DNA from: Methylobacterium sp. 77
GTDB taxonomy: Bacteria; Pseudomonadota; Alphaproteobacteria; Rhizobiales; Beijerinckiaceae
DNA: 64,000 bases
Assembly: GCF_000372825.1 (NCBI RefSeq)
Contig: NZ_KB910516.1
Coordinates: 3,267,825 to 3,331,824 of the forward strand
Direction: 5' to 3'
The notes under the pieces: model-generated
Seen by the model: only the letters and a program-made list of their open reading frames with translations
What the model was told of the DNA's origin: nothing
Databases searched by the model: none
Position numbers and translations under genes: made by a program
Shown here: piece by piece, positions 14,256-23,093 of the stretch
How positions within the stretch are numbered: position 1 is the stretch's first letter
Layout of the letters: each line of letters opens with the position of its first letter

Positions 14256-14855
14256 ATGCTGAAATCCTTCCTCACGACGCTCACCCTGACCCTGGCCGTG
14301 ACCGCGACGGCCGCCCAGGCCGACGACGTCACGCGCTACCGCGGCACCATCGAGAAGGTCGATGGAACGGCGGTAACGATCAAGCCGCGCATCGGCGACG
14401 CGCTGACGGTCACCATGGCCCCCGACGTGAAGGTACTGTCGGCCACCACCGGCAAGCTCACCGATATCAAGCCCGACAGCTATATCGGCACGGCGGCCAT
14501 CCCGCAGCCGGACGGATCGCAGAAGGCGCTGCAGGTCACCGTGTTCGCCTCGTCCCTGCGCGGCACGGCCGACGGCCATTATCCGTGGGATCTCGGCTCC
14601 AATTCCACCATGACCAACGGTGCCATCGGAACGATCTCCGGCACCGAGGGACGGACGATGCTGGTCAAGTACCAGGGCGGCGAGAAGAAGGTGAACGTCC
14701 CCGACGACGTGCCGGTGACGCTGGTCGATCCGGGTGACAAGTCCATCGTCGTCGACGGCGCGAAGGTTGTCGCCTTCACCAAGAAGGGCAGCGACGGCAA
14801 GCCCGGCGCGATCATCCTCATCGTCGGCCGGAACGGCACCGTCCCGTCGATGTAA
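14256..14855 (+). CDS. Exported protein of unknown function (paralogue B)
   Basis: A 199-residue exported protein (signal LTTLTLTLAVTATAAQA). It shares with the preceding gene the blocks RGTIEKVDGTAVTIKPRIGD, DIKPDSYIGTAA, HYPWDL, TMTNGAIG, GGEKK-VNVPDDVPV and NGTVPSM. AAGGAA lies just before ATG 14256. A GC-rich hairpin and then the cytochrome b gene follow within 90 nt, on the same strand. The copies differ enough to have diverged in role. Function unknown. Confidence 0.75.
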   Translation: MLKSFLTTLTLTLAVTATAAQADDVTRYRGTIEKVDGTAVTIKPRIGDALTVTMAPDVKVLSATTGKLTDIKPDSYIGTAAIPQPDGSQKALQVTVFASSLRGTADGHYPWDLGSNSTMTNGAIGTISGTEGRTMLVKYQGGEKKVNVPDDVPVTLVDPGDKSIVVDGAKVVAFTKKGSDGKPGAIILIVGRNGTVPSM

Positions 14856-14867
14856 CGGATCGGGCGG

Positions 14868-14892
14868 CCCTCCCCTCTCTACGGGGGGAGGG
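14868..14892 (+). terminator. GC-rich hairpin (possible attenuator)
   Basis: CCCTCCCC and GGGGAGGG form an 8-bp stem with a 9-nt loop, 12 nt after the paralogue B stop and before the cytochrome b gene. There is no T-tract, so it may only partly terminate or may protect the upstream mRNA. Confidence 0.4.
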
Positions 14893-14943
14893 TCTTCGCG
14901 GATCGGCGCTGATCCGGCACGCGTGCCACAGGGAGACCAGATC

Positions 14944-15603
14944 ATGTCATCACCCGGCGACCCCCGGTCCCGTCTCCTCGTGATCCACCCGCTCGTCGTG
15001 CGCGTGACCCACTGGATCAACGCGGTCGCGGTGTTCTGCATGCTGTTCAGCGGGTGGGCGATCTACAACGCCTCGCCGCTCTTCCCCTTCGCCTTTCCGA
15101 AATGGGCGACCCTCGGCGGCTGGCTCGGCGGGGCCCTGGCCTGGCATTTCGCCGCCATGTGGCTGTTCGCCCTAAACGGCCTCGCCTATGCGCTCTACGG
15201 CCTGTTCAGCCGCCATTTCGCCAGATCGTTCCTGCCGTTGAGCCCGACGGCGTTCTGGCGTGACGCCACGGCCGCGTTGAGGCTGCGCCTCACCCACCGC
15301 ATCGGCCAGTACAACGCGGTGCAGAGGCTCGCCTATCTGGTGGCGTTCCTGCTCGGAATCCTGCTGATCGCCTCGGGCCTCGCCCTGTGGAAGCCGGTGC
15401 AGTTGCAGGGACTCGCCAATCTGTTCGGCGGCTATGAATGGGCGCGGCGCGTCCATTTCGCCGCCATGTCCGGCCTCGTCGGCTTCATCCTGCTGCATCT
15501 GGCGCTGGTGATCCTGGTGCCGCGCACCCTCGTCGCGATGGTCACCGGCCGTGCCCGCGTTCCCGTCGATCCGCCCTCCGACATGGTGGAGAGCCGCCCA
15601 TGA
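14944..15603 (+). CDS. Cytochrome b561-type membrane protein
   Basis: A 219-residue integral membrane protein with four hydrophobic segments (about 25-45, 62-90, 128-150, 175-198). His in RVTHWINA, in AWHFAAMW and in RVHFAAMSG plus ILLHLAL are candidate heme ligands, as in the cytochrome b561/formate dehydrogenase gamma-like family. The stop overlaps the start of the molybdopterin oxidoreductase by four bases (ATGA). That strongly implies it is the membrane electron partner of that enzyme, taking or giving electrons to quinone. Confidence 0.87.
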   Translation: MSSPGDPRSRLLVIHPLVVRVTHWINAVAVFCMLFSGWAIYNASPLFPFAFPKWATLGGWLGGALAWHFAAMWLFALNGLAYALYGLFSRHFARSFLPLSPTAFWRDATAALRLRLTHRIGQYNAVQRLAYLVAFLLGILLIASGLALWKPVQLQGLANLFGGYEWARRVHFAAMSGLVGFILLHLALVILVPRTLVAMVTGRARVPVDPPSDMVESRP

Positions 15604-16379
15604 GCCGCGACCCGACCGAAGCGCAGCGCTTGCGCGACCTCCGCCGCGAGATCCAGCCGGACTTGGTGAGACTGGAGCGCCGCCTGTTCCTGCGCTCGGG
15701 CCTGTCGCTCGGTGCCCTGTCGCTGCTCTCGGGCTGCGACCTCTCCACCGGCACCAATGGCACGCTGATCGACCGGACGCTTTGGGCGATGTCGCGCGCC
15801 AACGACAGGGTCCAGGCCTGGTTGTTCGATCCGAACACCCTGGCGCCGACCTACCCGGCGAGCATGATCGACACGCCGTTCCGCTTCAACGCCTTCTACC
15901 CGCCGGACAACATCCCCGAGATCGACGAGGCGAGCTGGAAACTCGAAATCTCCGGCCTCGTCTCCGACAAGACGCCCTGGACGCTGCGGACGCTGCGCGC
16001 CCTGCCGCAGGAGAGCCAGATCACCCGGCACATCTGCATCGAGGGCTGGAGCCAGATCGGCCAGTGGAGCGGCGTTCCGCTGAGGACCTTCCTGGAACGC
16101 GTCGGCGCCGACCTCACCGCGAAATATGTCGGCTTCAAATGTGCCGACCGCTATTATGGCAGCCTCGACATGCCGAGCGCCCTGCATCCGCAGACGGTCC
16201 TGGCACTGGATTTCGGCGGCAAGGCCCTGCCCCTCGAATACGGCTATCCCCTCCGCGTGCGGGTGCCGACGAAACTCGGCTTCAAGAGCCCCAAGCACAT
16301 CGCCTCGATCTTCGTGACCAACGATTATCCGGGCGGCTACTGGGAGGACCAGGGCTACAACTGGTTCAGCGGCATCTGA
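15600..16379 (+). CDS. Tat-exported molybdopterin-dependent oxidoreductase (sulfite oxidase/MsrP-like)
   Basis: A 259-residue sulfite-oxidase-fold enzyme. RRLFLRSG at residues 27-34 is a twin-arginine signal. A lipobox LLSGC (Cys46) follows at once, suggesting a Tat-exported lipoprotein. Cys146 in HICIEGWSQIGQWSGVPL is the expected molybdenum ligand, and the later CADRYYGSLDM block fits the MsrP/YedY branch. The lack of an Ig-like dimerisation domain also suits MsrP-type proteins. It could reduce oxidised sulfur compounds, such as methionine sulfoxide, or oxidise sulfite. The overlapping cytochrome b supplies the electron link. Substrate is not decidable here. Confidence 0.85.
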   Translation: MSRDPTEAQRLRDLRREIQPDLVRLERRLFLRSGLSLGALSLLSGCDLSTGTNGTLIDRTLWAMSRANDRVQAWLFDPNTLAPTYPASMIDTPFRFNAFYPPDNIPEIDEASWKLEISGLVSDKTPWTLRTLRALPQESQITRHICIEGWSQIGQWSGVPLRTFLERVGADLTAKYVGFKCADRYYGSLDMPSALHPQTVLALDFGGKALPLEYGYPLRVRVPTKLGFKSPKHIASIFVTNDYPGGYWEDQGYNWFSGI

Positions 16380-16862
16380 TCGTCGGCGCGATCCGGCGAC
16401 ACCGGGCGAGGCCGCCGAAGAACAAGCCTGCTCCCGTCCGCGCGGCACAGGGAAGGATCTTTTCGCAAGCGCTTTGTCTTTGAAAATCACTGTCGTTGAC
16501 CCGGACGGGTCAGGATAGGCACAATAGAGCCAGGGCCGAAGGAAATATCACTCGCCCGCGTCATGCTCCCGACGACAGTCTTGTCGGGATGCAATGCTTC
16601 GATTGGAAAACCGTGTCGCGACGCCTTGGAATGCTCCCCGCCGACATGACGACAGGTTCGGTGTCGCGGAACGGGATCGAACGACGATGCCGGGTCGGCG
16701 GCCGAATGCCGGCTCGCGGAAGTAAGCCCGTGTCCCGCCGAGCCTCGTAGCAGCGAACCGGCACGATACCCGATCCGATGCCGCCGACGACCTGACAGGC
16801 GAAGGCCGTCAGGCACGCAACTGCCCCCCCCACACACCAAACGGCACCCGAAGGAGAGAGCG
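16380..16862 (+). other. Long intergenic region before a small gene
   Basis: 483 nt between the molybdopterin oxidoreductase and the 63-residue gene. It contains a possible promoter with an embedded palindrome (16496-16525). The rest looks non-coding with weak short frames on both strands. A long transcribed leader or small RNA is possible but not shown. Confidence 0.4.
16496..16525 (+). promoter_or_regulatory. Possible promoter with palindrome
   Basis: TTGACC at 16496 and CACAAT at 16520 are 18 nt apart, a plausible housekeeping promoter. The palindrome TGACCC-GGAC-GGGTCA (16497-16512) overlaps the -35 element, as an operator would. The first gene starts 340 nt downstream, so a long leader or an RNA would have to follow. 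Confidence 0.3.
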
Positions 16863-17054
16863 ATGGTTCTCGGAGATCAGGTCGTGTTCGCGAGACTCGA
16901 CGTTGCCGAGGCACTCGGCATCTGGCGCCACGCCACGGGGCGAGTCGTCGACATCGTATCCGGCGCCGACGGGGCGGACGCGGTGAACGTCCAGTTCGAA
17001 GGCCACCGCCTGCTGGTGGGCTACATCGCCTCGCTTTTCCAGCGCGTCGGCTGA
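16863..17054 (+). CDS. Small conserved-looking hypothetical protein
   Basis: A 63-residue protein preceded by AAGGAGAGAGCG before ATG 16863, the best ribosome binding site in this area. The sequence (MVLGDQVVFARLDVAEALG...VNVQFEGHRLLVGYIASLFQRVG) looks like one small compact beta domain. It is 57 nt upstream of cysE on the same strand and may be its operon partner in the sulfur locus. Function unknown. Confidence 0.65.
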   Translation: MVLGDQVVFARLDVAEALGIWRHATGRVVDIVSGADGADAVNVQFEGHRLLVGYIASLFQRVG

Positions 17055-17111
17055 GACCGGAATTCCGGTGCCGACGGGGCTCGCCCGAGCCGCCACGAGG
17101 ACGACGAACTC

Positions 17112-17978
17112 ATGACAGCCGGCAGTCTGGCCACGCGCAGTATGCCGAGCAACATCCTGCGCCCGCCCCTGCGCAGCGTGAGCCAGACCCACGCCGAATC
17201 CGACGTCTGGCGGGCGATGCGCGCGGAGGCCGAGGCCGCGCTGATCGAAGAGCCGCTCTATGCCGGCATCGTCCAGGCGACGGTGCTCGATCAGCCGAGC
17301 CTGATCCACGCCTTCGCCTACCGGCTCGCCCATCGCCTCGGCGATGGCGACCTCTCGCGGCTTTCCACCCGCGACCTCTGCCTGTCCGCGTTCCAGGCCG
17401 ATCCGCATGCGGGCGACCATGCGGTGCGCGATCTCGTCGCCATCCGCGAGCGCGACCCGACCTGCCGGCGCTACCTCGATCCCTTCCTGTTCTACAAGGG
17501 CCTCGCCGCCCTGGAGGGCTACCGCGTGGCCCACTGGCTCTGGCACCAGGGCCGCGCCACCCTCGCCCTCCATATCCAGAGCCGGATCTCCGAGGTGTTC
17601 GGGGCCGATATCCATCCCGCCGCGCGAATCGGCTCGGGCGTCTTCATCGATCACGCCACCGGCGTCGTCATCGGCGAGACGACCGTGATCGCCGACGATG
17701 TCTCGATCCTGCAATCGGTGACCCTCGGCGGCAACGGCAAGGAGAGCGGCGACCGCCATCCGAAGATCGAGCGCGGGGTGCTGCTCAGCGTCGGCGCCAA
17801 GGTGCTGGGCAACATCCGGGTCGGCGAGGGGGCGAAGGTCGCCGCCGCCGCCGTGGTGCTCCACGACGTGCCCGCTCACACCACCGTCGCAGGGGTGCCT
17901 GCCCGTGTCGTGTCCCGGATCAGCGCCGCCGAGGATCCGGCGCTCAGCATGGACCAGTTTTTCGGCGACGGGATTTAG
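17112..17978 (+). CDS. cysE: Serine O-acetyltransferase
   Basis: A 288-residue enzyme that makes O-acetylserine from serine and acetyl-CoA, the committed step to cysteine. An N-terminal SATase helical domain (DVWRAMRAEAEAAL...EEPLYAGIVQATVLDQ) precedes a left-handed beta-helix of hexapeptides (IHPAARIGSGVFIDHATGVVIGE). IDHATGVVIGET carries the catalytic His, and SILQSVTLGG and VAGVPARVV complete the family pattern. The C-terminal tail ends in Ile (DQFFGDGI), as required for docking with CysK. It lies upstream of the encapsulin shell and desulfurase, an arrangement reported for sulfur nanocompartment loci. Confidence 0.93.
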   Translation: MTAGSLATRSMPSNILRPPLRSVSQTHAESDVWRAMRAEAEAALIEEPLYAGIVQATVLDQPSLIHAFAYRLAHRLGDGDLSRLSTRDLCLSAFQADPHAGDHAVRDLVAIRERDPTCRRYLDPFLFYKGLAALEGYRVAHWLWHQGRATLALHIQSRISEVFGADIHPAARIGSGVFIDHATGVVIGETTVIADDVSILQSVTLGGNGKESGDRHPKIERGVLLSVGAKVLGNIRVGEGAKVAAAAVVLHDVPAHTTVAGVPARVVSRISAAEDPALSMDQFFGDGI

Positions 17979-18327
17979 AAAAAGATTTCGACTATTCACT
18001 TCCGTGCAACGCGCAACTCCGAGATATTTCATCCACCAGATCGCTATTTTATAGAATATAATTAGTTCATATCCAGCAAAATAGAATATCCATTCTATAA
18101 AGTGACTGAATTATAGAACATCTTTTTGTTGACCGCCTTCCATTACAAGAGCTAGAGGTAAATCGCTCCCGCAGTGACGCTTTGTCTGAGGCAGCGGGCG
18201 CCGATCAAGATCAGTCCAAGATTATCCAACGAGCGAGAGCGGACGCGCGATAGGTGCGGCTCCGACGCGGCTACGGCTGCGTCGGGGTCGGCCAACGCCT
18301 CCTGCCGCAATACGGAGATACATACCG
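17979..18327 (+). other. AT-rich intergenic region before the encapsulin gene
   Basis: 349 nt. Bases 18040-18130 are strikingly AT-rich in an otherwise GC-rich genome and contain the TATAGAA array. No open frame is credible. It most likely holds the promoter of the shell-cargo operon, with its regulation. Confidence 0.6.
18050..18118 (+). promoter_or_regulatory. Array of four TATAGAA-type elements
   Basis: Elements lie at 18050-18057 (TATAGAAT), 18081-18087 (ATAGAAT), 18092-18098 (ATTCTAT, inverse) and 18111-18118 (TTATAGAA). Pairs form inverted repeats: ATAGAAT-n4-ATTCTAT, and TTCTATAA (18093-18100) with TTATAGAA, 10 nt apart. The pattern looks like operator repeats for a dimeric regulator next to the shell promoter. 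Identity of the regulator is unknown; Rrf2/CymR-type cysteine sensors would fit only by analogy. Confidence 0.55.
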
Positions 18328-19719
18328 ATGAGTGGACCTGGTCTGAGCGTGAGCGCCTCGGCGGCACGTAATCTTGCAACCGCAACCGTCACCTCGGTCC
18401 AGAATGCGGCCAACACCCCGCGCTGGTTCCATCGCCTGCTGCCCTTCGTCGACGTCGCCGGCGGCGTCTATCGCGTCAACCGCCGCGCGGTCGTGCTGGC
18501 CAAGCCCGGCCGGATCGAACTTAGCAGCGAGGGCAACGAGCGCAGCGTGCGTCCGGCCTCCCTGCGCCGCATCCCGCTGTTCAGCCGCCTCGGCGACAAC
18601 GAATTGTCGGCTCTCGCATCGAAGTTCACGACCTCCCAGCACAAGGCCGGCGAGATCATCGCCGAGGAGGGCTCCACCGGCCGCAGCCTCACCGTGGTCG
18701 CCGACGGCACCGTCGAGCTGACCCTGTCCGGTCCGTTCAAGGGTCGCCTGCGCCAGGGCCTCGCCACCGGCGGCGACTATTTCGGTGACGGCGACCTCGT
18801 CGGCGAGAACACGCCCGCCCCGGCCGTGAAGGCGCTCTCGGCGGTGACGCTGCTCACCCTCGACCGCGCCGCCATCGAGGACGAGGGCATCCGCTCGCGC
18901 ATCACCCAGTATGTGGAAGAGCGCGACCGCCTCAAGGGCCACACCAACAGCCACGGAGAGCAGGGCATCGAGCTGCTCGCGGTCCATACCGGCGAGCCGC
19001 GCCTGCCCACCACCTTCGTCGATTACGAAGAGGATCCGCGCGAGTACCACCTCTCCACGATCCAGACGATCCTGCACACCCATACCCGCGTGACCGATCT
19101 CTATTCCAACGAGATCGACCAGCTGCGCGAGCAGATCCGCCTCACGGTCGATGCCGTGAAGGAGCGTGAAGAGTGGGAGCTGTTCAACAATTCCGAATTC
19201 GGCCTGCTCCACGAAGTCAGCCAGCGCCAGCGCATCCCCACCCGTGGCGGACCGCCGACCCCGGACGATCTCGACGAGCTCCTGACCCTGGTCTGGAAGA
19301 AGCCGGCCTTCTTCGTCGCCCATCCCCGCGCCATCGCGGCGTTCGGCCGGGAAGCCACGCGCCGTGGCGTGCCGCCGGTGGTGATCCACCTGTTCGGCTC
19401 GCCCTTCCTCACCTGGCGCGGCGTGCCGATCGTGCCCAGCGACAAGCTGCCGATCGACATCGATCCGGTGACCGGCGCCCAGACCACCTCGATCCTGCTG
19501 CTGCGCGTCGGCGAAGGCGAGCAGGGCGTGGTCGGCCTTCAGAAGTCCGGCGTCACCGGCGAGATCGAGACCGGCCTGTCGGTGCGCTACATGGGCACCA
19601 ACGACCATTCCATCGCCTCGCACCTCGTGACCCGCTACTTCTCCGCCGCCGTCCTGGTGGAGGATGCCATCGCACGCCTCGATAACGTGCTGCTGGGCAA
19701 CTACCATGACTACGCCTAG
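18328..19719 (+). CDS. Family 2 encapsulin shell protein with inserted cNMP-binding-like domain (2B type)
   Basis: A 463-residue HK97-fold shell protein predicted to self-assemble into an icosahedral nanocompartment. Residues 1-78 form the N-terminal arm and 79-200 an inserted domain with the cyclic-nucleotide-binding fold (RRIPLFSRLGDNEL, then YFGDGDLVGENTPAPAVKAL). Residues ~201-463 are the shell part (HLSTIQTILHTHTRVTDLYSNEIDQ; ending LDNVLLGNYHDYA). The phosphate cassette reads FGDGDL with no Arg in the PAPA segment, so canonical nucleotide binding is doubtful. Stop codon 19717-19719 overlaps the cargo gene start. The family name is from recall. Confidence 0.88.
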   Translation: MSGPGLSVSASAARNLATATVTSVQNAANTPRWFHRLLPFVDVAGGVYRVNRRAVVLAKPGRIELSSEGNERSVRPASLRRIPLFSRLGDNELSALASKFTTSQHKAGEIIAEEGSTGRSLTVVADGTVELTLSGPFKGRLRQGLATGGDYFGDGDLVGENTPAPAVKALSAVTLLTLDRAAIEDEGIRSRITQYVEERDRLKGHTNSHGEQGIELLAVHTGEPRLPTTFVDYEEDPREYHLSTIQTILHTHTRVTDLYSNEIDQLREQIRLTVDAVKEREEWELFNNSEFGLLHEVSQRQRIPTRGGPPTPDDLDELLTLVWKKPAFFVAHPRAIAAFGREATRRGVPPVVIHLFGSPFLTWRGVPIVPSDKLPIDIDPVTGAQTTSILLLRVGEGEQGVVGLQKSGVTGEIETGLSVRYMGTNDHSIASHLVTRYFSAAVLVEDAIARLDNVLLGNYHDYA

Positions 19720-21721
19720 CGCGCCGGGCCTCCCCACGGGTCTGTTCGGCGATACGGCGCATGCGGATCTCGTCGGGCGTCTCGCCCGCGAGATCTACGG
19801 CCAGGGGCAGGCCGCGAGCGCGCCCCTGACCCCTAACCTGCCGCAGACCCCGCAGGCACCGCAGGCCCTGGAGAATCTTCCCCAGGGCTTCGGCCACCCG
19901 CTGGCGCCCAAGGCGGATCTCGGTACGCCGTCGATCCCCTCGGGTTCCGCGCCCTCGGGATTGCAGCCCGACGCGTCGGCCCTCGCCGCCCGCTCCTTCG
20001 GTGCCCCGCCCGTCGGTCTTCCGGGCCTGACCGGGCCGGGCTTCGCCCAGCCCTCGGCTTTCCCCTCGGTCCATCCCGAGGCGCAGGCTCCCCGTGGCGG
20101 CCTGCCGGAATTCTTCGTGCCGAGCGTCGACGACGTGGCCGCCTTCCTTCCGGGGGGACGCGACCTCCACGCGACGATCGCCAAGGACCACCCGCGCGCC
20201 AATGCCTTCGCGCACGGGTTCGCCCCATCGCTGGTGCCCTCCGCCCCGACGCCCTCCGCCCCGACCGCTCGGGGTTCTCATGCGTCGCACGACGTGTCGC
20301 AGGAATCCCATGGGCGCCCCGGCCGGGTCACCGCGCCAACCGGGAAGCCCGGCTCGGCCGATTCCTACGCCACGGACGAGTATTACTTCCTCGCGGATCG
20401 CAGCCGCTCTGGCAGCACCGCGCCCGCGCAGGTGAAGACCCGCGAGAACCAGGGACGCGGAGAATCCGCTCGCCTTCCCACCGGCCAGGGCTCTAGCCCG
20501 GTAGCCGCGCCGTTCGACGTGGAGCGGGTGCGCCGCGACTTCCCGGCGCTCCACCAGAGCGTCAACGGCCATCCGCTGGTCTGGCTCGACAACGCCGCCA
20601 CCACCCACAAGCCGCAGAGCGTGATCGACGCGACGTCCGAGTTCTATGCCCGGCACAACTCGAACATCCACCGGGCCGCGCATACCCTGGCGGCGCGCTC
20701 GACGGACCTGTTCGAGGGCGGTCGCGAGAAGGTGCGGCGCTTCATCAACGCACCGTCGAAGGACGACATCGTCTTCCTGCGCGGCACCACCGAGGCGATC
20801 AACCTCGTCGCCAATTCCTACGGCCGCGCCAATATCGGTCCGGGCGACGAGATCATCGTCAGCCAGATCGAGCACCACGCCAACATCGTACCCTGGCAGC
20901 TCCTGACCCAGGCCACGGGGGCGACCCTGCGGGTGATCCCGGTCAACGACCGGGGCGAGCTCATCTTCGAGCAGTTCGCCGCCCTGCTCTCGGGCCGCAC
21001 CAAGATCGTGTCGGTGACCCATGTCGCCAACGCGCTCGGCACCATCAACCCGGTCGCGGAGATCATCGCCCTCAGCCATGCCTACGGCGTGCCTGTGCTG
21101 GTGGATGCGGCCCAATCCTCGCCGCACATCCCCCTCGACGTGCAGGCGCTGGATGCCGACTTCCTCGTCTTCTCCGGCCACAAGGTGTTCGGCCCGACCG
21201 GGATCGGCGCCCTCTACGGCAAGAAGCACCTGCTGGAGGCGATGCCCCCCTGGCAGGGCGGCGGCCACATGATCGAGGACGTCACCTTCGCGCATACCGT
21301 CTACAAGGGAGCGCCGGAGAAGTTCGAGGCCGGCACCCCGGACATCGCCGGCGCGGTCGGACTCGGTGCGGCCCTCGACTACCTCGAGAGCGTCGGCCTG
21401 CCCGGAATCGCGGCCTACGAGCACGACCTGCTCGACTACGCGCAACACGGACTCGCCGAGGTGAAGGGCCTTCGCCTCATCGGCACGGCCCGGCAGAAGG
21501 CCAGCGTGATGTCCTTCGTGATCGATGGACATGAGAACGAGGCGGTGGCCAAGCACCTCGACGCTAGCGGCATCGCGGTGCGCTCGGGCCACCATTGCGC
21601 CCTCCCGGCCCTGCGCCGCTTCGGCGTCGATCAGTCGGTCCGCGCCTCGCTCGCCTTCTACAACACCCGGGCGGAGGTGGACGTGTTCCTCAAGGCGCTG
21701 CACGCCCTGCCGCGCCGGTAA
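19706..21721 (+). CDS. Encapsulin cargo: cysteine desulfurase with disordered N-terminal targeting region
   Basis: A 671-residue protein. Residues ~1-270 are Pro/Ala/Gly/Ser-rich and disordered, the expected cargo-loading segment; short hydrophobic islands (LVGRLAREIYGQ, GGLPEFFVPSVDD, YYFLAD) are candidates for shell-binding motifs. Residues 271-671 are a SufS-like class II cysteine desulfurase: EHHANIVPW with His390, PLP-Lys493 in FSGHKVFGPTGIG, and Cys631 in RSGHHCALPALRR as the persulfide-forming residue. It removes sulfur from cysteine to alanine. ATG 19706 lies within the shell gene, 14 nt before its end, so translation is coupled. This is the cargo of the shell gene upstream. Confidence 0.9.
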   Translation: MTTPSAPGLPTGLFGDTAHADLVGRLAREIYGQGQAASAPLTPNLPQTPQAPQALENLPQGFGHPLAPKADLGTPSIPSGSAPSGLQPDASALAARSFGAPPVGLPGLTGPGFAQPSAFPSVHPEAQAPRGGLPEFFVPSVDDVAAFLPGGRDLHATIAKDHPRANAFAHGFAPSLVPSAPTPSAPTARGSHASHDVSQESHGRPGRVTAPTGKPGSADSYATDEYYFLADRSRSGSTAPAQVKTRENQGRGESARLPTGQGSSPVAAPFDVERVRRDFPALHQSVNGHPLVWLDNAATTHKPQSVIDATSEFYARHNSNIHRAAHTLAARSTDLFEGGREKVRRFINAPSKDDIVFLRGTTEAINLVANSYGRANIGPGDEIIVSQIEHHANIVPWQLLTQATGATLRVIPVNDRGELIFEQFAALLSGRTKIVSVTHVANALGTINPVAEIIALSHAYGVPVLVDAAQSSPHIPLDVQALDADFLVFSGHKVFGPTGIGALYGKKHLLEAMPPWQGGGHMIEDVTFAHTVYKGAPEKFEAGTPDIAGAVGLGAALDYLESVGLPGIAAYEHDLLDYAQHGLAEVKGLRLIGTARQKASVMSFVIDGHENEAVAKHLDASGIAVRSGHHCALPALRRFGVDQSVRASLAFYNTRAEVDVFLKALHALPRR

Positions 21722-21755
21722 TTCCCGGCGACGCCTGCAGGACGATCATCTCGAC

Positions 21756-21788
21756 CAGACCTCGATGGGCTCGCCCCATCGAGGTCTG
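21756..21788. terminator. Strong hairpin between convergent genes
   Basis: A perfect 14-bp stem (CAGACCTCGATGGG and CCCATCGAGGTCTG) with a 5-nt loop, between the desulfurase and the leftward transporter genes. There is no T-tract, but its strength and position suggest transcription termination from both sides. Confidence 0.7.
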
Positions 21789-21806
21789 AACGCATTTGGG
21801 GTGGGA

Positions 21807-22232
21807 TCAGGCGGAGCGCTCGCGGGTGAAGCGATGGAGCAGCATCCCCGCCAGCATCGCCGCCACGAACCCGATGACCTGCGGCAGGCCGAGAACCAGG
21901 CCGGCCAGCGCAGGGCCGGGGCAGAGACCGACGAGCCCCCAGCCGATGCCGAACAGGGCCGCGCCCCCGATCAGGCTGGCGGTGATCGGACGGTTGTGGG
22001 GAATCTCGAACCGCTGTGCGAGAACGGGCTTCCGCATGAGCTTGACGAGGGCGTAGCCCAGGGCCGAGACCGCGACCGCGCCGGCGAGCACGAAGGCGAG
22101 TCTCGGGTCCCAGGCTCCCGCGACATCGAGAAATCCGAGCACGCGCGCCGGGTCCATCATGCCCGACAGGGCGAGGCCGAAGCCGAACAGGAGCCCGGCG
22201 AGCAACCCCACCGCTGAACGCAGGACATCCAT
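21807..22232 (-). CDS. YeeE/YedE-type transporter, second half protein
   Basis: A 141-residue membrane protein with four hydrophobic segments and [14 protein letters not shown], the second conserved cysteine motif of YeeE/YedE family thiosulfate/sulfur transporters. Start ATG 22232 has GGAGG 6 nt upstream, and overlaps the stop of the preceding half gene. Together the two halves correspond to one YeeE-like transporter split in two, a common two-gene (DUF6691-like) arrangement. It is convergent with the encapsulin operon. Import of a sulfur compound for the desulfurase/cysE locus is a reasonable inference. Confidence 0.85.
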
Positions 22233-22648
22233 CACCATCCTCCGTGGCGGACGAGGAACACCGTCGCGGCGGCGGTGACCATGAAGGTCGCCACCGCGGC
22301 GATGGAGCGGGGCGACAGCCGAGCGAGCCCGCAAACGCCGTGGCCGCTGGTGCATCCCCCGCCGAGGCGCGTCCCGTAGCCGACGAGGAGTCCGCCGAGG
22401 ACGACGAGGATCCACGGCGCGTCGAGCTGGACGACCGGCCAGGCGCCGAAGGCGAGGCGGAACAGGATCGGCCCGAGGAGCAATCCCGCGAGGAAGGTCC
22501 AGCGCCAGAGGACCTCGCGGCTCGGCGGCCGCATCGCCCCGGCGGCGATGCCGCTGATGCCGGCGATGCGGCCGTTGAGGATGAGGAGCAGTGCGGCGGA
22601 GGTCCCGATCAGGGCACCTCCGGCGAGGGCCGACAGGTAGGTGTTCAT
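22232..22648 (-). CDS. YeeE/YedE-type transporter, first half protein
   Basis: A 138-residue inner-membrane protein with about four transmembrane segments. [20 protein letters not shown] is the hallmark cysteine motif of the YeeE/YedE family (thiosulfate uptake, TsuA-like). ATG 22648 opens [15 protein letters not shown]. Its TGA (22232-22234) overlaps the start of the second half, so the pair is translationally coupled. The pair stands on the strand opposite to the shell operon but ends against it. Confidence 0.87.
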
Positions 22649-23093
22649 TCAGCGACTCCGGCCCGACTTTATGGGGCTATCCGGAACGGGCCACGGCCAT
22701 GGCGGACCGAAACGGTCGGCGATGACGCGCCCATCGTCACGAACCGAAAACGGCAATACGGCCACGGTTCGCACTCCCGACGATAGGTCGAATGCCGGAG
22801 CGTCACTGTCAATGGGACGCGCCTGCTTCCGACACCGGGCGCTGCGCCGAGCGCTCGTGCAGGATCGCAAGGACGTGAGGCATGGTCGACGTATCGTCAT
22901 GGCCGGTGCGGCATCTCCTGGCCGGTGCGGCGTCTCCTGGCCGGTGCGGCGTCTCCTGGCCGGTGCGGCGTCTCCTGGCCGGTGCGGCGTCACATGAGGC
23001 GGCGGCCGACTGCCTCGATGGCATGTCGAACCGCCGCGCTCGCTCTTCGGGTGGCTGGCCTGACGAAGGCCAGCCACCCGGTCGCCTCGCCTT
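22649..23093 (-). other. Intergenic region with 19-bp tandem repeat
   Basis: 445 nt between the YeeE/YedE pair and the chemoreceptor, both leftward. Frames here are artefacts of the repeat. The presumed transporter promoter lies within this stretch. Apart from the tandem repeat listed separately I see nothing definite. Confidence 0.5.
22901..22993. repeat. 19-bp tandem repeat, about 4.9 copies
   Basis: Unit GGCCGGTGCGGCGTCTCCT repeats with period 19: units begin at 22901, 22920, 22939, 22958 and 22977. The first has one A for G change and the last is partial. There are no spacers, so it is not a CRISPR. It sits about 250 nt upstream of the transporter start. Variable-number behaviour between strains is possible. 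Confidence 0.9.

Follow-up and report, generated by a model that had tools for sequence, protein, structure and literature searches.

In Methylobacterium, an operon that pairs a Family 2B encapsulin shell with a cysteine desulfurase is likely used during sulfur limitation. This reading combines the family assignment of the shell and its cargo with a promoter element that recurs before sulfur-scavenging genes, and it is the control region that constitutes the new element of the finding.

Gene content and family assignment

The genome is a single contig of 4.66 Mb with its closest named relatives in Methylobacterium, and the shell protein is 98% identical to its counterpart in M. gossipiicola. 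In the window, by which we mean the whole stretch of 64,000 nucleotides that was analysed, the plus strand carries a 63-residue ORF, cysE, a gap of about 350 bp, the shell gene and the desulfurase gene, and two YeeE/YedE halves, which overlap each other, converge on them from the minus strand. The desulfurase ATG falls within the final codons of the shell gene, producing an overlap of 14 bases.

16863..17054, + strand: 63-residue SH3-like protein of no named family (conservation and predicted structure)
17112..17978, + strand: cysE, serine O-acetyltransferase (TIGR01172 224 bits, cut-off 211; PF06426 98 bits)
18328..19719, + strand: Family 2B encapsulin shell protein (NF041163 576 bits, PF19307 364 bits)
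18640..18879, + strand: inserted cyclic-nucleotide-binding-like domain, shell residues 105–184 (PF00027 32.6 bits)
19706..21721, + strand: cargo, cysteine desulfurase of SufS type with an extended N-terminus (PF00266 491 bits)
19769..19801, + strand: putative cargo loading motif 1, LVGRLAREIYG, residues 22–32 (likeness to LARLANEFFS, PMC8049743)
20381..20392, + strand: putative cargo loading motif 2, YYFL, residues 226–229 (likeness to AASPYYFLDG, PMC8049743)
21758..21786, no strand: hairpin GACCTCGATGGG-ctcgc-CCCATCGAGGTC, a possible terminator where the two units converge (from the sequence, unscored)
21807..22238, − strand: YeeE/YedE half 2, DUF6691 (PF20398 128 bits; bounds approximate, the start codon being assigned by choice)
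22232..22648, − strand: YeeE/YedE half 1, Sulf_transp (PF04143 36.6 bits)

The preliminary description of this DNA had named a shell, a desulfurase cargo, a serine acetyltransferase and a split YeeE/YedE transporter, and the ORFs and profile matches place each of them where it had been located. The row of cysE, shell and cargo likewise stands, with the addition of the 63-residue gene before cysE, which had been left undescribed although its start, 16863, coincides with the left boundary given there. Outside this row, positions 14734–16379 contain a gene of the cytochrome b561 type and, after it, one for a molybdopterin oxidoreductase, both kept at this place in the five closest named loci (L036–L040), and a 19-base unit is repeated in tandem (4.8 copies, 98% match) at 22900–22991, just past the YeeE pair.

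By profile score and homology, the shell is a Family 2B encapsulin. It passes the ‘family 2B’ model NF041163 (cut-off 400) and far exceeds the cut-off of 22.8 for PF19307, the SrpI-like, HK97-type shell domain; its score against the 2A model NF041162, 426 bits on the shared shell part, is 150 bits under the 2B score. The closest solved chains are the Streptomyces 2B shells 9bje, 9bix and 9bhu (355–397 bits), followed by 2A shells including SrpI (6x8m, 329 bits). The subfamily is given by the inserted cyclic-nucleotide-binding-like domain, which is absent from Family 2A; the assignment to 2A was considered and rejected, because a PF00027 domain is inserted here whereas 2A is defined without one. 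The claim of a Family 2 shell thus agrees with both profiles and with solved homologues of both subfamilies, and the comparison of 2A and 2B models that had been proposed with it resolves the subfamily as 2B. An AlphaFold2 model of the shell from a 36-row alignment is confident in the inserted domain, with an overall pLDDT of 56 and most of the HK97 part below 60. A Foldseek search with this low-confidence model ranks 2B and then 2A shells at the top with a TM score of only about 0.28, and the HK97 fold of the shell therefore rests on homology.

The adjacent cysteine desulfurase bears a long N-terminal extension and retains SGHK and GHHCA, to which we ascribe catalytic roles. Read from an earlier in-frame start at 19664, it passes the encapsulin cargo desulfurase model NF041166 (815 bits, cut-off 800), so that this score, the PF00266 match and both N-terminal motifs agree with its earlier description as a desulfurase cargo. 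Two motifs, LARLANEFFS and AASPYYFLDG, are given for the N-termini of 2A cargoes of Synechococcus in the available portion of PMC8049743, and counterparts of both are present in the window. Among Methylobacterium-type cargoes with a readable N-terminus, the helix expression is found in 59 of 64 and YYFL in all 64; the corresponding counts for the helix and a YYFL-like motif are 10 and 11 of 14 other-taxon 2B cargoes, and 13 and 10 of 13 proteobacterial 2A cargoes. This recurrence across 2A and 2B cargoes makes it appear that both use one common loading code, and the shell probably packages the cysteine-cleaving enzyme. PF00266 has nine matches in the genome, among them a further SufS-scale enzyme at 473 bits and another match at 202 bits, and a second CysE (236 bits) is also encoded elsewhere; the pair at the encapsulin locus would therefore be additional to a housekeeping set.

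The serine acetyltransferase proposed upstream is upheld by its TIGR01172 score. Together with the small ORF it makes up a unit distinct from the shell–cargo pair. Of 66 Methylobacterium-type loci, 63 have the small ORF and cysE upstream of the shell; L082, L092 (contig edge) and L093 do not, so the arrangement is not due to chance. The small ORF is absent from all 14 other-taxon loci examined. A search among 5.8 billion proteins returned 41 matches to its product, most of them without an organism label and all the labelled ones from Methylobacterium. Seventeen positions are invariant across 50 sequences, and dN is lower than dS in the 40 comparisons listed out of 53. The structural model is an SH3-like barrel (pLDDT 90.8) with generic structural matches only. 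As a first guess, the protein may act with CysE or on its expression, because its gene stands before cysE.

Of 37 genomes in the genus, 32 have a 2B shell above cut-off; among 24 genomes from elsewhere in the order, none does. Within the class, 4 of 289 genomes have PF19307 above its cut-off, and two of the four belong to this genus; within the phylum, 17 of 398 do, five of them from this genus and the remaining twelve having frames of 2A size (305–348 residues).

The control box and its other sites

What could link this operon to sulfur supply? In the shell promoter, which is sigma-70-like, a loose palindrome directly adjoins the −35. The sites in the window are the following:

18107..18134, + strand: main control box, abutting the −35 TTGACC (18129–18134), with a −10-like TAGAGG at 18153–18158 (matrix 36.2)
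18081..18098, + strand: weaker second box, a perfect inverted repeat ATAGAAT-N4-ATTCTAT about 32 bp upstream of the main box (matrix 12.3)
16474..16501, + strand: box with the −35 TTGACC (16496–16501), upstream of the small ORF and cysE (matrix 18.9)

The element is present in all 65 loci used (64 relatives and the own genome), its sites having been chosen by a loose expression around TTGAC that favours finding them; the box tests that follow are independent of this choice. It lies 167–273 bp upstream of the shell ATG and consists of an AT-rich half-palindrome of approximately AAATTTAGAAAATCATTCCG, then TTGAC, then TA some 18 bp further on. A matrix built from these 65 promoters, with an effective number of 26, was scanned over both strands of the whole window, where its best match is the main shell box and its second best the box before the small ORF and cysE. 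Only 13 of 62 relatives have a box scoring at least 10 at the latter position. Among relatives without it (L047, L053, L057, L068 and others), another AT-rich element (AATTATC..., CAATGACT) is apparently common, as judged by eye. Separately, the shell frame of Methylobacterium sp. Leaf123 (L093, 8001–9347) has an internal stop, no match to the small ORF or cysE upstream and no strong box, and is perhaps a decaying copy.

Over the 66 loci (1.06 Mb), the matrix yields 91 matches of at least 20, of which 27 remain after subtracting one per locus; each of five dinucleotide shuffles gives none, and the reversed matrix gives one. Some of the 27 are second shell-promoter boxes or boxes before the small ORF. 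Most of the others looked at precede genes for an SsuA-family binding protein, SsuD-like, TauD, SfnB-related acyl-CoA-dehydrogenase-like, rhodanese and SoxC-like proteins, and a few precede genes with no plain link to sulfur (L043, L079, L095).

When one mismatch is allowed, a relaxed pattern matches the own genome at 16 places, against 3 for the reversed control; the looser pattern with two mismatches gives 35 matches against 13. Seven of the 16 stand at sulfur genes: those for O-acetylhomoserine sulfhydrylase, SoxC, the small ORF with cysE, the FMN reductase MsuE, a MetN-like ATPase and a 3-mercaptopyruvate-sulfurtransferase-like protein, the last two under their profile cut-offs, and a sulfate-binding protein, with the box in opposite orientation. 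The remaining nine are not by sulfur genes, which counts against a regulon. One more box stands at an SsuA-family binding protein of this genome (L133) that scores under its profile cut-off.

Across the genus, the exact pattern has 23 matches in 18 of 59 genomes and none for the control, these counts coming from related genomes and hence from non-independent samples. Of these, five lie before the shell, 15 before a sulfur-type gene and three before neither; the last three again count against a regulon. The sulfur-type genes, named by likeness to proteins that were profile-scanned elsewhere in the analysis, comprise four SsuD-like, four O-acetylhomoserine sulfhydrylase and four acyl-CoA-dehydrogenase-like genes, along with single cases of an FMN reductase, a luciferase-like oxygenase and a binding protein.

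Since the box is common to the shell and to sulfur-scavenging genes, the encapsulin seems to belong to a sulfur-limitation regulon, and its shell is probably made when sulfur is short. The sulfur role earlier proposed for the locus from its gene content thereby gains independent promoter evidence. In Synechococcus, the 2A relative SrpI increases under sulfate starvation, but loss of SrpI or its cargo causes no growth defect, which counts against a role in sulfur limitation (both from the accessible text of PMC8049743).

Possible roles of the compartment

How might such a compartment serve the cell? We propose that a regulator of sulfur limitation would bind the box and turn on shell and cargo along with organosulfur uptake. 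The shell would assemble and take in the desulfurase through its two N-terminal motifs, and CysE would provide O-acetylserine for cysteine synthesis. The packaged desulfurase would convert cysteine to alanine and sulfane sulfur, to be held in the shell or handed out from it.

The shell might instead be a persulfide relay and not a store, such that a chosen sulfurtransferase alone collects the desulfurase sulfur for cofactor or methionine synthesis under sulfur limitation. This is a tentative and less likely alternative. In its favour, the box also stands at the 3-mercaptopyruvate-sulfurtransferase-like gene and at O-acetylhomoserine sulfhydrylase, rhodanese-like genes occur downstream of the cargo in four loci from other taxa (cluster 38), and the idea is discussed in the portion of PMC8346489 available. 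However, the window's own operon holds no rhodanese, and the sulfurtransferase is encoded elsewhere in the genome and falls under its NCBIfam cut-off.

The split YeeE/YedE pair converging on the shell unit, as originally described, agrees with its PF04143 and PF20398 matches. Its further placement among the members of the system is supported by position but not by shared control, as the matrix scan of both strands of the whole window finds no box upstream of the pair. By coordinates compared by hand, YeeE half 1 is found no more than 6 kb from the shell in 20 of the 32 genomes that have one; in 6 of these it stands downstream of the shell and in 14 upstream. The upstream copies are 55–62% identical to that of the window, less than the 67–73% of ten copies of the same genus that are unlinked to the shell, which suggests two separate linkages. 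From these positions, the linkage between YeeE and the shell is real and perhaps repeated, and YeeE-like matches also occur close to the shell in Acetobacter (L104) and in Oscillatoria (L106). That the pair works in the system by importing thiosulfate or a similar sulfur species nevertheless seems somewhat unlikely, given the missing box, the absence of linkage in 12 of the 32 genomes and the result with the NCBIfam TsuA model NF052577, where half 1 scores 23.9 bits against a cut-off of 400 that half-size proteins could hardly reach, and half 2 has no match. In L072 (at an offset of −1738 relative to the shell) and in four more loci, a gene for a DUF442/BLH-like sulfur transferase lies upstream of the small ORF on the other strand, close to an upstream YeeE/YedE pair.

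Quite unlikely, in our estimate, is a compartment that serves not scavenging but the restraint of cysteine breakdown or the handling of excess cysteine or sulfane sulfur, with CysE and the desulfurase balancing the cysteine pool. The two enzymes act oppositely on that pool and their genes lie together, and sequestration of the desulfurase to spare cysteine is suggested in the accessible part of PMC8049743; yet the common box points to sulfur-acquisition genes, and both units share it in only part of the genus.

The inserted domain, modelled alone, is well predicted and has cGMP- and cAMP-binding domains as its structural matches. The arginine of the cyclic-nucleotide-binding cassette is its phosphate-binding residue. 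In the window shell, this arginine is replaced by proline and the glutamate of the cassette by aspartate; the arginine is missing in 34 of 36 aligned shells and kept in two. Its loss makes cyclic-nucleotide control unlikely, and the domain probably no longer senses cyclic nucleotides. It is therefore highly improbable that the insert renders the shell a cyclic-nucleotide-gated compartment, for all its PF00027 match and its likeness to cGMP- and cAMP-binding domains, the more so as earlier-tested 2B domains bind no cyclic nucleotide according to the available text of PMC12407261. A planctomycete 2B shell beside a desulfurase (L105, 837–2225) keeps the canonical cassette FGEIAL...PRTANV and may therefore suit a search for ligand binding better.

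The proposed use of the operon in sulfur limitation could be extended by viewing the encapsulin as a sulfur buffer that is switched on for organosulfur scavenging. A single regulator would co-induce the shell, sulfonate and taurine uptake, oxygenases and sulfite handling, and sulfur arriving in bursts would be banked inside as sulfane sulfur. The SH3-like protein of this genus would tune either CysE or the shell, and the nucleotide pocket, now decayed, would serve another ligand. Taken as a whole, this extended scheme is speculative and quite unlikely. The promoter box itself is strict and testable, and it ties the compartment to named sulfur-scavenging genes. Methylobacterium is a genus with workable genetics, and the cellular role of desulfurase shells is therefore directly testable.

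Comparison with known encapsulin systems

The preliminary description had regarded a role specific to this organism as undescribed. As far as the literature was searched, this holds for the genus; operons of the 2B desulfurase type are themselves in print (PMC8346489, in its available portion), and a search of open-licence papers turned up no experimental work on an encapsulin of this type.

Judged by its genes, the operon of the window is one of a published kind, in which a Family 2B encapsulin goes with a cysteine desulfurase. The 2021 survey, in the part available, counts 199 2B desulfurase operons and lists serine acetyltransferases and rhodaneses as enriched neighbours (PMC8346489). The window resembles these operons in the nucleotide-binding-like insert of the shell and the disordered-type N-terminus of the desulfurase. 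It differs in the small SH3-like gene, YeeE/YedE and the control box, which go unmentioned in that portion of the survey; the name Methylobacterium has no occurrence in its main text.

The SrpI/CyD system of Synechococcus elongatus, of Family 2A, shares the desulfurase cargo, the two N-terminal motifs and the link to sulfur limitation (PMC8049743, accessible text). Unlike the window shell, SrpI has no inserted domain, and its system belongs to a different phylum and uses a different promoter. The Streptomyces 2B shells 9bje, 9bix and 9bhu have the identical domain layout. As described in the available text of PMC12407261, 9bje and 9bix form a two-component system of xylulose-kinase type, whereas the window combines a single shell gene with a desulfurase.
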